Source: Marinobacterium jannaschii DSM 6295 (GTDB lineage: Bacteria; Pseudomonadota; Gammaproteobacteria; Pseudomonadales; Balneatricaceae). Taken from it: a stretch of DNA of 35,847 nt. The notes under the pieces were generated by a model that saw nothing but the letters and a program-made list of their open reading frames with translations, was not told the DNA's origin and did not search any database. Positions 14,289-35,847 of this stretch are shown piece after piece. The stretch covers positions 1 to 35,847 of the forward strand of contig NZ_JHVJ01000034.1 in the NCBI RefSeq assembly GCF_000620085.1, in the 5' to 3' direction. Numbering within the stretch: the first letter of the stretch is position 1; each line of letters opens with the position of its first letter. The translations under genes and the position numbers were made by a program.

Positions 14289-14374
14289 GCCCAAGTGGTG
14301 GAATTGGTAGACACGCTATCTTGAGGGGGTAGTGTCCCTAGGACGTGCCGGTTCGAGTCCGGCCTTGGGCACCA
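14289..14374 (+). tRNA. tRNA-Leu, anticodon GAG
   Basis: The acceptor GCCCAAG (14289-14295) pairs with CTTGGGC (14364-14370), followed by A and an encoded CCA. The anticodon arm CTATC-TTGAGGG-GGTAG gives GAG at 14323-14325, reading CUC/CUU. The long variable arm (TGTCCCTAGGACGT) is typical of leucine tRNAs, and the T-arm has GTTCGAGTC. Position after secG and anticodon match E. coli leuU. Confidence 0.97.
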
Positions 14375-14425
14375 TATGTCTTGAATTTTCAAGGCGGTAC
14401 GTGTAATATACGTGCCAGTTTCTGA

Positions 14426-14502
<77 letters not shown>

Positions 14503-20550: not shown

Positions 20551-20626
20551 CAGTTTGCAGCGGAGCTGATCCGTTGCATCGACGTTGTTCTGGAAATATG
20601 CCCGGTTCAACGCGTCTTTTAATCCG

Positions 20627-20640
20627 GCAGCGAAAGCTGC
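20627..20640 (+). promoter_or_regulatory. GNRA-capped hairpin in the rpsO leader (candidate S15 autoregulation element)
   Basis: GCAGC-GAAA-GCTGC forms a short stem capped by a GAAA tetraloop 26 bases upstream of the rpsO ATG, just before the AAGGAG Shine-Dalgarno. S15 is known to repress its own translation through leader RNA structures that differ between bacterial groups. That this is such an element is inferred from position and shape only. Confidence 0.4.
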
Positions 20641-20666
20641 GTGCATATTGTTAAGGAGATTGAGAA

Positions 20667-20936
20667 ATGGCTCTGTCTGCAGAAAAGAAAGCTGAGATTG
20701 TTAAAGATTTTGCTCGTGGCGAAGGCGACACTGGTTCCCCGGAAGTACAGGTTGCACTGCTGACCGCTAACATTGAAGGCCTGCAGGGTCACTTCAAAGC
20801 GAACAAACACGACCATCATTCTCGCCGCGGTCTGATCCGCATGGTAAACCAGCGTCGTAAGCTGCTGGACTACCTGAAAGGCAAAGATGCTGATCGTTAC
20901 CTGGACCTGATCAAGCGTCTGGGTCTGCGTCGCTAA
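20667..20936 (+). CDS. rpsO: 30S ribosomal protein S15
   Basis: S15 is a primary binder of the central domain of 16S rRNA (helices 20-22) and forms an intersubunit bridge. It is 89 residues, standard length. Conserved rRNA-contacting segments are present: [35 protein letters not shown], and [26 protein letters not shown] lies upstream of the ATG. The gene is followed by an intrinsic terminator and then pnp, the conserved rpsO-pnp order. Confidence 0.98.
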
Positions 20937-33202: not shown

Positions 33203-33694
33203 TTATATACAGATCCGTTCCAGAGTACCCAGAGGGTTTACAACTAATAGATCAGATAAGCGGCTGCCATCGGGCAAAACCAGCCCGGGAGAGATCTCGG
33301 AAAGCGGCCAGAGCACGAAGCTGCGCTCCTGCATAAATGGATGCGGGACGCTGAGGCGCTCGGTCGCGATATGCTCGTCGCCATACAGCAGCAGATCCAG
33401 ATCGAGGGTGCGTGGGCCCCAGTGCTGTTTGCGAACCCGGCGGTGACTCTGTTCCAGTTGCTGTAGCTGATCCAACAGCTGGTGGGCTTCCAGGGTGGTC
33501 CTTAGCAGCGCTACGGCATTGATGAAGTCCGGTTGGTCCTGCGGACCGACCGGATCGGAGCGGTAGAGGCTGGAGGCCTGTAACAGCGTTGTCTGAGGTA
33601 TCAGGTCCAGCTCCGCCAGTGCGGTCGTAACCTGCTGGCGGGGATCTTCAAGGTTGCTGCCCAGGCCGATGTAACAGAGGATCTCAGGACTCAT
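33203..33694 (-). CDS. folK: 6-hydroxymethyl-7,8-dihydropterin pyrophosphokinase
   Basis: FolK transfers pyrophosphate from ATP to hydroxymethyl-dihydropterin, the step before FolP. The start chosen is the ATG at 33694 (MSPEILCYIGLGSNLEDP), giving 163 residues, a normal length. The upstream extension of 49 codons only mirrors the pcnB 3' end in another frame. Key motifs are GLGSN and the ATP/metal segment GPRTLDLDLLLYGD, followed by PHPFMQERSFVLWPL. It overlaps the end of pcnB by 11 bases, the usual pcnB-folK coupling. Confidence 0.95.
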   Translation of the reverse strand: MSPEILCYIGLGSNLEDPRQQVTTALAELDLIPQTTLLQASSLYRSDPVGPQDQPDFINAVALLRTTLEAHQLLDQLQQLEQSHRRVRKQHWGPRTLDLDLLLYGDEHIATERLSVPHPFMQERSFVLWPLSEISPGLVLPDGSRLSDLLVVNPLGTLERICI

Positions 33695-35183
33695 TGTTAC
33701 CGGTCCGGGCTTTATTGTTGTAGCGACGGCGACGGCGTGGCTTCCGGCGCTCGCCTTCCTGACTGCCGCTTTCGTTGTCCAGAGAGCTGCGCTGATCGCT
33801 ATTGGCATTCTGGTAGTCAGTCCACCAGCGCCCCAGTCCATTCAGCTCTTCTCCGGCCTGTTCGCGCAACAGCAGCAGGTCATAGGCGGCACGGAAACGC
33901 GGGTGCTCCATCAGACGCTCGGCACGTTTGCCATGGCGACGTGGCAGTCGTAACTGCAGTTCCCAGATCTCACGGATCGGGGTGGAGAAGCGGCGTGGAA
34001 TCGCAGTGCTCTTAACCTGCCGGGCAATCACTTCATTGGCTGCCTCATGCATGGCCGGCACCGGAGGCATGCCCTGTTCATCCATCAGCTGCTGCATGCG
34101 GCGCTGGGTTGGGTACCAGAGCAGTGCGGCGAACAGGAATGAGGGGGTTACGCTCTTGCGCTGGTTGAGACGCCGGTCGGTATTGCGGAAAGCCGCCGTA
34201 ATCAGTGCTTCTACCGGAAGCTCCGGAGCCTGCTCGATGGTGGCCTGAGTCTGGCCAAACAACTGGCGGAACAGATCATATCGCTGCAGCTGAGTGTAGG
34301 AGTTCATGGCATGTCCGGACTGGAACAGCTTAAGAACTTCATCAAACAGGCGAGCGGCTGCGATATGACCCAGCAAAGGGGCCAGTTCGCGAATCGGCGC
34401 TGCGGTAGCCGGCTCGATGTCAAACTCCAGTTTGGCGGCAAAACGCGCGGCGCGCAGCATCCGCACCGGATCTTCCCGATAGCGGGCGTCCGGATCACCG
34501 ATCATACGCAGGATACGCTGCTGCATATCCTGATAGCCGCCAGTGAAGTCATGCACACTGTGATCTTTGATGCAGTAGTAGAGGGCATTGACTGTGAAGT
34601 CTCGGCGTCGTGCGTCTTCCTCAATCGAGCCATAAACGTTGTCACGCAGGATCAGTCCGGACTCAGACTGTCGTCCCAGCTCACCGTCATTATTCTCGCT
34701 GCTGGAGTCATGGCCGGCGCGGAAGGTGGCAACCTCGATCAGTTCGCGGCCAAAGCGGACGTGTAACAGTTTGAAGCGTCGGCCTATCAGGCGTGAGCGA
34801 CGAAACAACTCATGTGCCTGTTCCGGCTCAGCGTCGGTAGTGACGTCAAAATCCTTAGGGCGTTTACCCATAAGCAGGTCGCGGATACAGCCGCCTACCA
34901 GATAGCCTTCGTAACCGGAATCGACCAGGCGATAGACAACCTTAAGCGCATTGTCATCAAGGCGCTGGCGCTTAATACCATGTTCCGCTTCAGGAATAAT
35001 CCGACGGCGGGGTAAGGAGGAACCCGGTGCTTCCTTTGTTGTTAGCATTGCATCTGCCTTGTTGGCAGTTGCCACAATATCAGTGTCAGAGTCATTTTCA
35101 GCGCGGGCTGAAAAGATCGAACGGATACCGTTACCGATAGTAGAGAACAGGCTTTTTCCCATAGGATTTGAATCTGGATTCAC
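33684..35183 (-). CDS. pcnB: Poly(A) polymerase I
   Basis: PcnB adds 3' poly(A) tails that mark RNAs for decay by PNPase and others. The 499-residue class II nucleotidyltransferase has GGCIRDLLMGKRPKDFDVTTDA, in which Asp111 and Asp113 bind the metals. RRxxP-type RRRIIPEAEHGI precedes it and separates PcnB from CCA-adding enzymes. EEDARRRDFTVNALYY follows. The C-terminal segment LPRRHGKRAERLMEHPRFRAAYDLLLLRE matches Pseudomonas PcnB closely, then a basic Arg/Lys-rich tail. The start used is GTG at 35183; an ATG seven codons later (MGKSLFSTIG) resembles the Pseudomonas N-terminus. Neither has a good Shine-Dalgarno. The CrcZ-like region lies directly upstream. Confidence 0.96.
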   Translation of the reverse strand: MNPDSNPMGKSLFSTIGNGIRSIFSARAENDSDTDIVATANKADAMLTTKEAPGSSLPRRRIIPEAEHGIKRQRLDDNALKVVYRLVDSGYEGYLVGGCIRDLLMGKRPKDFDVTTDAEPEQAHELFRRSRLIGRRFKLLHVRFGRELIEVATFRAGHDSSSENNDGELGRQSESGLILRDNVYGSIEEDARRRDFTVNALYYCIKDHSVHDFTGGYQDMQQRILRMIGDPDARYREDPVRMLRAARFAAKLEFDIEPATAAPIRELAPLLGHIAAARLFDEVLKLFQSGHAMNSYTQLQRYDLFRQLFGQTQATIEQAPELPVEALITAAFRNTDRRLNQRKSVTPSFLFAALLWYPTQRRMQQLMDEQGMPPVPAMHEAANEVIARQVKSTAIPRRFSTPIREIWELQLRLPRRHGKRAERLMEHPRFRAAYDLLLLREQAGEELNGLGRWWTDYQNANSDQRSSLDNESGSQEGERRKPRRRRRYNNKARTGNNES

Positions 35184-35242: not shown

Positions 35243-35483
35243 CAAAAGTTGATCAGCGAATGAAATGCGTATTAGGGAGCGGGAAGGGATGGGAAGCTGA
35301 TCGCCTGCAGGTTATCGCGTTGTATAACCGCCAGCTATAGGAAGGGAGTTACGGGATGACTCCACGACCAGCTTTTAAGCCTCATTTTTATTTTTATTAC
35401 GGGCAGAAGACTTTTCCACACGCTACCTGTTTTTATTTTTATTGATGGTGCACGCTTCTAAGCATGTTTTCCTTGTTGTTGTG
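35243..35483 (-). ncRNA. crcZ: Candidate CrcZ-like small RNA (Hfq/Crc-titrating) upstream of pcnB
   Basis: The predicted transcript starts about 12 bases after a sigma-54 promoter, directly at CACAACAACAAGG, which contains a perfect AANAANAA-type catabolite-activity motif (AACAACAA, 35480-35473). A stem-loop CATGCT-TAGA-AGCGTG (35466-35451) follows. Two identical AATAAAAATAAAAA motifs (35443-35430 and 35398-35385) then appear, each matching the same A-rich pattern. In Pseudomonas, CrcZ lies between cbrB and pcnB, is driven by sigma-54 and CbrB, begins with a CA-rich motif and titrates Hfq (with Crc) from target mRNAs. Location, promoter class and motif repetition all agree here. The 3' end is uncertain: a long-loop stem (35296-35302 with 35251-35257) followed by AACTTTTG gives about 240 nt, but readthrough or processing is possible. 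Homology is inferred from architecture. Confidence 0.6.
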
Positions 35484-35493
35484 GGTTGTATAA

Positions 35494-35509
35494 AGCGGGA
35501 ACTGTGCCA
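35494..35509 (-). promoter_or_regulatory. Sigma-54 (RpoN) promoter
   Basis: On the minus strand the sequence TGGCACAGTTCCCGCT matches the consensus TGGCAC-G-R-N3-TTGC-W at the full -24 hexamer, the purine, the -12 GC and the final A/T. The essential GG-N10-GC spacing is exact. The -12 element has CC in place of TT. An AT-rich stretch (about 35511-35552) lies just upstream, where an IHF bend would be expected. It predicts initiation near 35483 and reads toward pcnB. Confidence 0.7.
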
Positions 35510-35582: not shown

Positions 35583-35633
35583 TGTTACCCCTGTTCCCAG
35601 AAAGGTTACTTCTTTGTGGGTAATGCAGTAACG
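35583..35633. promoter_or_regulatory. Cluster of GTTAC/GTAAC half-sites, candidate activator (CbrB-type) binding region
   Basis: TGTTAC (35583-35588), GGTTAC (35604-35609), GTAATG (35620-35625) and GTAACG (35628-35633) lie in 51 bp. They form inverted GTTAC...GTAAC pairs. They are about 100-150 bp upstream of the predicted sigma-54 transcript, the normal distance for an enhancer-binding protein. From memory the Pseudomonas CbrB sites are also TGTTAC/GTAACA-like inverted repeats, but I am not certain of the exact consensus. No other structure is evident from 35634 to 35788. Confidence 0.4.
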
Positions 35634-35788: not shown

Positions 35789-35847
35789 AAGCAGGAAGCA
35801 GGAAGCAGGAAGCAGGAAGCAGGAAGCAGGAAGCAGGAAGCAGGAAG
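35789..35847. repeat. Heptanucleotide tandem array, unit GCAGGAA
   Basis: A perfect period-7 array of about 8.4 copies of GCAGGAA (TTCCTGC on the other strand) runs to the window edge, so its full length is unknown. It is unrelated in sequence to the CCCATAG array at the left end but has the same unit length and lies likewise in non-coding DNA. Confidence 0.95.

Follow-up and report, generated by a model that had tools for sequence, protein, structure and literature searches.

The DNA upstream of pcnB raises the question of whether a marine gammaproteobacterium carries an RNA that works like the Pseudomonas decoy CrcZ. In Pseudomonas, CbrAB and RpoN induce CrcZ under poor carbon supply, after which CrcZ sequesters Hfq and Crc (PMC8395346). 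The window, by which we mean the whole stretch of 35,847 nt analysed here (C26:1-35847), belongs to a genome of 5.18 Mb in 39 contigs, and a sequence-only reading had placed one CrcZ-like RNA beside pcnB. We conclude that this gene, unit C (35288..35481, minus strand), is very probably the third of three tandem CrcZ-type small RNA genes between cbrB and pcnB, and that its transcript would be a decoy for Hfq and Crc induced by CbrAB and RpoN, with both transcription and binding predicted rather than observed.

Unit C was delimited with R1, a covariance model that was built from other genomes and contains no sequence of the host genome. The match scored 95.9 bits (E-value of 3.5e-20) and was the sole R1 match in the window, which confirms an RNA of this type but not that it is single, as three lie in tandem. 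From the promoter we infer an RNA start near 35483. This predicted sigma-54 promoter, TGGCACAGTTCCCGCT (35494..35509, minus strand), lies upstream of pcnB as proposed, just outside the interval first delimited. It reads TGGCAC-N7-GCT, with C replacing the usual T before GC; the CGC variant is common to all three units of the host genome, while most other promoters have TGC. Scanning the window for the sigma-54 pattern gave two matches with 0.98 expected by chance, so the pattern alone is weak evidence. The A-rich elements could also be located where they had been reported. The 5′ motif AACAACAA, read from the sequence, occupies 35473..35480 (minus strand), and the 14-nt motif AATAAAAATAAAAA occurs twice in identical form, at the loop position of hairpin 1 (35430..35443, minus strand) and in the loop of hairpin 2 (35385-35398, within 35379..35404, minus strand). 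In 100 shuffles of the window the 14-mer was found 0.00 times on average, compared with two in the window itself; AANAANAANAANAA gave the same two window matches against 0.02 in shuffles, and AANAANAA occurs three times in unit C where 0.71 were expected by shuffling (p = 0.0145).

The downstream neighbour of unit C is pcnB, encoding poly(A) polymerase (33684..35183, minus strand; TIGR01942, E-value of 8.9e-164; Pfam PolyA_pol). Beyond the right window edge are two further copies, followed by cbrB, cbrA, gluQ and dksA (the last two named by eye). The copies therefore form a tandem array of three, and the predicted cbrB-RNA-pcnB position was found, with both cbr genes to the right as anticipated. 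Promoters included, the units span C26:35288-35509 (C), 35916-36151 (B) and 36531-36770 (A), and every unit has a promoter and CbrB-type subsites of its own. All copies found in the host genome lie in this gap. Unit A was found at 71% identity by BLAST, and units A and B score 126.3 and 136.6 bits against R1. Between units C and B, Tandem Repeats Finder reported an array of the 7-nt repeat CTTCCTG (C26:35789-35916, window part 35789..35847, minus strand; L004:2190-2317) with 18.4 copies and a run of 10 N inside. The spacer of a two-unit locus in another genome (G033, L047) also holds a tandem repeat, of the CTATCAG type, as seen by eye.

To describe the RNA, we used 32 units in which the closing helix was recognised by eye, a set that excludes L061 and L062 of the host family and all other families. 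The R1 alignment comprises 27 of these, from 21 other host-family genomes, the excluded units being the three of the host genome, L063 and L064. The RNA starts with an A-rich 5′ tail, continues with hairpins 1 and 2, and ends in a long closing helix with hairpin 3 inside it; there are A-rich stretches of about 14 nt in the loops. AANAANAA is present within the first 45 nt in 31 of the 32 units. In a hand-made structure of 22 pairs, 89.7% of the cells are paired. Column shuffles gave 77.9 ± 0.9 and slid controls 20.6 to 43.5%, for a structure that was drawn on the same 27 sequences. Changes on both sides were seen in 19 of the 22 pairs compared with 11.4 in shuffles, and in 83 cells compared with 28.5, counts that are inflated by kinship among the sequences. 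In the closing helix of the relatives, 95.9% of cells are paired and nine of the ten pairs changed on both sides. The stems flanking the 95 A-rich loops of the 32 units had a score of 12.3, against 8.25 ± 0.30 after shuffling (highest shuffle 9.19).

Unit A has a 48-codon ORF behind AACAACAAGGA and one other unit (the second of L048) has one of 70 codons, as might be expected if the units encoded a small protein. However, the longest ORFs of the 32 units measure between 10 and 70 codons and do not agree in where they start and end, several that begin at the ATG of hairpin 2 (AATGAGG) are of unequal length, and the helices covary. As no frame is conserved, we set a small protein aside as very improbable. 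In 29 of the 32 units the closing helix is followed by 80 nt rich in C and poor in G, which suggests Rho-dependent transcript ends. A run of at least five T, counted irrespective of any hairpin, occurs nearby in 11 of the 32. No intrinsic terminator was detected after unit C in a scan of this copy only, its one site lying inside pcnB with 1.0 expected.

The window copy is the most diverged one, having lost hairpin 3 and most of the hairpin stems. Its closing helix, formed by GCTGGTCG (35372-35365) with CGATCAGC (within GCGATCAGC, 35304-35296; 35296..35372, minus strand), is its only good helix. The A-rich hairpin 3 found inside this helix in relatives is missing, the stem of hairpin 2 has shrunk to GCC/GGC, and the stems flanking the two A-rich motifs do not outscore those of shuffled flanks (p = 0.27 and 0.38). 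The stem-loop read from the sequence is therefore weak in this copy. In a tree of 36 units (24 taken from the 32, the other 12 dispersed), unit C also has the longest end branch (0.53). These losses raise the possibility that unit C is decaying and only A and B act, which would be compatible with the array as a whole. We consider this rather unlikely, though still a serious option: the promoter, three subsites, the 5′ motif and two exact 14-mers are retained, an A-rich stretch may be able to bind as a single strand, with no hairpin around it, and relaxed or new function can give a long branch as well. Our preferred reading remains that unit C is the third CrcZ-type gene of the array.

The same tree bears on how the array arose. 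The pair of units in G001 is recent, whereas the pairs in G006 and G033 split before those two species did, and a single clade for the three host copies had a p-AU of 0.476. The tree as a whole points to several separate duplications. An internal duplication of the 14-mer, as had been suggested, was rejected because the motifs occupy the loop positions of hairpins 1 and 2 and both positions are present in 27 of 27 aligned units of relatives. What was duplicated is the whole enhancer-promoter-RNA unit, and both motifs are ancestral loops.

Control of these units was assessed through their CbrB-type sites. In P. putida, the published subsites for CbrB read TGTTAC and GTAACA and are spaced 20-25 bp (PMC6296734). 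Upstream of unit C, the predicted enhancer (35584..35632, minus strand) consists of GTTACT (35632-35627), AGTAAC (35610-35605) and GGTAAC (35589-35584), spaced 22 and 21 bp; only GGTAAC lies in a perfect GTAACA, and the other two match at five of six positions. Over the 32 units we counted 129 CbrB-type sites, 125 of them exact hexamers, while dinucleotide shuffles gave 13.9 ± 3.1 (highest 22). Every unit has at least two. Sites fall near -123 and -82 from the promoter in 24 of the 32 units, the remaining eight being without such spacing. At four loci of, or close to, the Rfam CrcZ type, the subsites are at -123/-83, -123/-83, -124/-82 and -123/-81.

We then compared the gene with CrcZ as defined by Rfam (RF01675). 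At the gathering threshold there was no match here, and the curated model, with which a search had been proposed, gave just 12.2 bits (E-value of 0.85) in a permissive search, against a gathering score of 95 bits. CrcZ was nevertheless the only one of 4227 Rfam families to appear at E-values up to 10, below threshold. Elsewhere in the window, on the plus strand, a ribosomal S15 leader and two tRNAs (20620-20723 and 14289-14499) are ordinary Rfam matches. Across 293 genomes of the order, 59 match Rfam CrcZ at an E-value of 0.001 and 14 pass the threshold, 11 from family f21 (presumably Pseudomonadaceae) and three from f2. None of the 59 is from the host family, in a search whose stricter filters lose weak matches. 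The gene is not a CrcZ member by the Rfam definition.

In other respects it resembles CrcZ closely. CrcZ of Pseudomonas and Azotobacter has the same position between cbrB and pcnB (PMC8395346). At the four Rfam-type loci we found the same sigma-54 promoter with similarly spaced CbrB subsites, and the same 5′ AACAACAA followed by further A-rich motifs, some in predicted hairpin loops. The present gene lies between cbrB and pcnB, has a sigma-54 promoter and CbrB subsites at a set distance upstream, and contains several AANAANAA motifs with one near the 5′ end. Its position, predicted control and motif content are those of an RNA made to act as CrcZ does. In contrast, the conserved core is about 205 nt where CrcZ has 398 model positions or 407 nt, and neither the layout of two hairpins followed by a long closing helix with a third nor the three tandem copies are like CrcZ. 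More than one decoy gene per genome is likewise known from CrcY and CrcX of P. putida, P. fluorescens and P. syringae (PMC8395346), and crcY likewise comes with CbrB subsites and a sigma-54 promoter of its own (PMC6296734). Unlike those, the host copies are in tandem in the cbrB-pcnB gap; other host-family genera have dispersed copies. A broader parallel is the titration of a translational repressor by repeated protein-binding motifs in hairpin loops, as in RsmY, RsmZ and the CsrB-type decoys. There the motifs are GGA for CsrA/RsmA rather than A-rich for Hfq, and we claim no homology.

R1 matched 99 of the 116 host-family genomes, 21 of which gave training sequences and 78 did not. Of the 17 genomes without a match, three (G014, G485 and G487) have the promoter and A-rich motifs by eye. 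Over the whole order, 41 of 390 genomes matched at an E-value of 0.001 or better; 24 of these are outside the host family, at 54.5 bits or less. Matches to the loci of the Rfam-positive family f21 were weak (best 23.2 bits, E-value of 0.0016). Weak matches in three genomes of genus g2 (G020, G475 and G479; L259, L260 and L261) had no sigma-54 module at those places.

The spread of the system was followed through cbrA. An 832-residue part of CbrA had a near-full-length match in 46 of 57 genomes by our own count (in G056 in two pieces). The cbrB-pcnB gap was taken for 45 of the 46, leaving out G003, where the cbrA contig ends. A gap was scored positive if a sigma-54 element in it was followed within 250 nt by two or more A-rich motifs and preceded by one or more CbrB-type subsites; these cut-offs were our own choice, and the rule missed the first unit of L048 (CGGCAC), which was seen by eye. 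The module was found in 36 of the 45 gaps, against 0.005 expected by shuffling, and in 11 of 18 families, f21 included. Since 28 of the gaps (26 positive) are from the host family, each of the other 17 families is represented by a single gap, and ten of these gaps are positive. The arrangement proposed for this DNA does extend outside Pseudomonas, and promoter and A-rich motifs are present in sister species. The relatives concerned include Marinobacterium, Neptuniibacter, Amphritea, Pontibacterium and Nitrincola, in keeping with a marine oceanospirillad. The two negative gaps of the host family (G011 and G025) belong to genomes with units elsewhere, and the negative f2 genome carries a complete unit on a different contig (L270). 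In the f7 gap R1 matched at 39.7 bits and the promoter rule failed, and the negative gaps of f8 and f14 have sub-threshold CrcZ matches; in one f8 genome (G042), neither of two places examined held a sigma-54 module with three motifs. The gaps of f9, f10 and f18 contained no module by the rule.

Units away from cbrB-pcnB occur in G025, G011, G434 and G021 (L164-L172), with a sigma-54 element upstream of nine of the 12 R1 matches. These dispersed units decide whether the A-rich tracts could be chance features of the pcnB untranslated region, for which one might cite how common the sigma-54 pattern alone is by chance. Tracts of that kind would not be expected away from pcnB with a promoter and subsites of their own, nor would the helices covary, and the 14-mer never arose in the window shuffles. 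Because of the dispersed copies and the covariation, we regard a chance origin as excluded for practical purposes.

A decoy of this kind requires partners, and hfq, cbrAB and crc are all encoded in the genome as foreseen, with crc, hfq and rpoN on other contigs. By Pfam, CbrA is a 989-aa kinase (PAS, HisKA, HATPase) and CbrB a response regulator with a sigma-54 domain. CbrA is 49% identical over residues 10-829 to the CbrA of G055, a genome that passes the Rfam CrcZ cut-off. A large kinase and an NtrC-type sigma-54 activator, related to those of CrcZ-bearing genomes, are thus encoded near pcnB, as befits CbrA and CbrB. Pfam showed no transporter domain in the N-terminal part of CbrA, and no family named CbrA or CbrB is among the best 25 NCBIfam matches listed for each protein. 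The Crc ortholog sits between rph and pyrE (neighbours named by eye) and aligns over 253 residues with the solved Crc 4jg3, which we take to be the P. aeruginosa protein. The GDLN of the host exonuclease III is GTYH in the Crc ortholog and GSLY in 4jg3. Full length, a degenerate nuclease site and the rph-pyrE position are as in Crc; NCBIfam calls the protein exodeoxyribonuclease III, above the cut-off of that model. Hfq (L008:1483-1731) is identical to chain 1u1s at 68 of 77 positions and has Phe in place of Tyr25, presumably a distal-face residue.

From these elements a mechanism can be proposed. With its own CbrB-type subsites and sigma-54 promoter, each unit would be switched on by CbrA/CbrB and RpoN when carbon supply is poor, as sites and synteny suggest. 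By analogy with Pseudomonas, the A-rich stretches at the 5′ end and in each hairpin loop would engage Hfq at its distal face, jointly with Crc, and the decoy would remove this repressor complex from mRNAs for the uptake and breakdown of less-preferred substrates. The three-copy array may provide a higher decoy dosage. Besides the units, the host genome has five A-rich ribosome-site matches against one in the reversed control. Three of the five precede genes for proteins with OpuAC, NMT1-like and Asp/Glu racemase domains, which fits uptake and amino-acid metabolism, although cases this few are no evidence.

Genus g4 shows what becomes of the RNA when CbrAB is gone. No CbrB ortholog was found in any of the six g4 genomes, where the best matches are 42-45% identical compared with 64-77% in five CbrB-bearing genomes, and there was no CbrA ortholog in the three genomes tested. 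Still, each of the six has one R1 match (L173, L174, L175, L182, L183 and L279). The order is dksA-gluQ-RNA-pcnB in L173 and L174 (genes named by eye), and the RNA also precedes pcnB in G022. At five g4 loci, neither a sigma-54 element nor a CbrB subsite was found upstream of the RNA. Instead, TTGAAH-N17-TATADT lies just upstream in all six genomes. Taken one sequence at a time, this sigma-70-like promoter is weak, with p-values of 0.0185 to 0.1725 by shuffling; G443 has a second site of equal score, and the site of G444 is overlapped by a loose GG-N10-GC match. We regard it as a candidate promoter because every one of the six genomes has it at the same place, although the six are not independent of each other. 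All of them have kept a gene for RpoN. The 640 nt before pcnB contained no visible unit in 13 g2 genomes and in G012; CbrA was missing from the four of these tested for it, and CbrB from the three tested.

That g4 retains the RNA without CbrAB would suit an RNA that acts chiefly as a general sponge for Hfq and so tunes Hfq-dependent riboregulation, with Crc and carbon control secondary. P. aeruginosa CrcZ is described as also disturbing Hfq riboregulation (PMC8395346), and G051 has a module beside cbrB (L072) while its best Crc match is only 29% identical. Alcanivorax, too, has been reported to lack Crc (PMC9788540), so Crc is not universal. On the other hand, the units beside cbrB have at least two CbrB-type subsites in 32 of 32 cases, and a Crc match of at least 62% identity is present in 34 of the 35 other host-family genomes searched, three of g4 among them. 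We therefore consider a general sponge improbable and favour a decoy for Hfq and Crc under CbrAB control.

Two papers describe CbrAB as exclusive, a 2022 review to Pseudomonas and Azotobacter (PMC8871633) and a 2018 paper likewise to Pseudomonadaceae (PMC6296734), so the step beyond Pseudomonas is larger than the sequence-only reading stated. Among the top matches for CrcZ, CbrA or CbrB with marine genera or orders, and among the listed CrcZ papers since 2022, we found no report of CbrAB-CrcZ outside Pseudomonadaceae, at a coverage that was mostly of titles and thin for subscription journals. In PMC9049629, PMC5295007 and PMC10574752 we found nothing on CrcZ or CbrAB outside Pseudomonas. The nearest report is of an Acinetobacter small RNA with three A-rich motifs that was likened to CrcZ (PMC12802169).

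Taken together, we lean towards the view that CbrAB-CrcZ carbon control is ancestral in the whole broad order (in the GTDB sense) rather than a property of Pseudomonadaceae, and that it may have evolved as a self-contained enhancer-promoter-RNA unit was duplicated and dispersed. On this account, g4 would have deleted cbrAB and kept the decoy RNA at gluQ-RNA-pcnB, driven there by a sigma-70-like promoter. The circuit would thereby have been rewired in nature, with Hfq/Crc titration freed from carbon sensing. As copy number, motif number and promoter type vary among close relatives, the dosage of the decoy and its coupling to CbrAB can be tested directly. If our interpretation is correct, the carbon-control circuit of Pseudomonas and Azotobacter would run in many marine lineages where nobody has looked for it.
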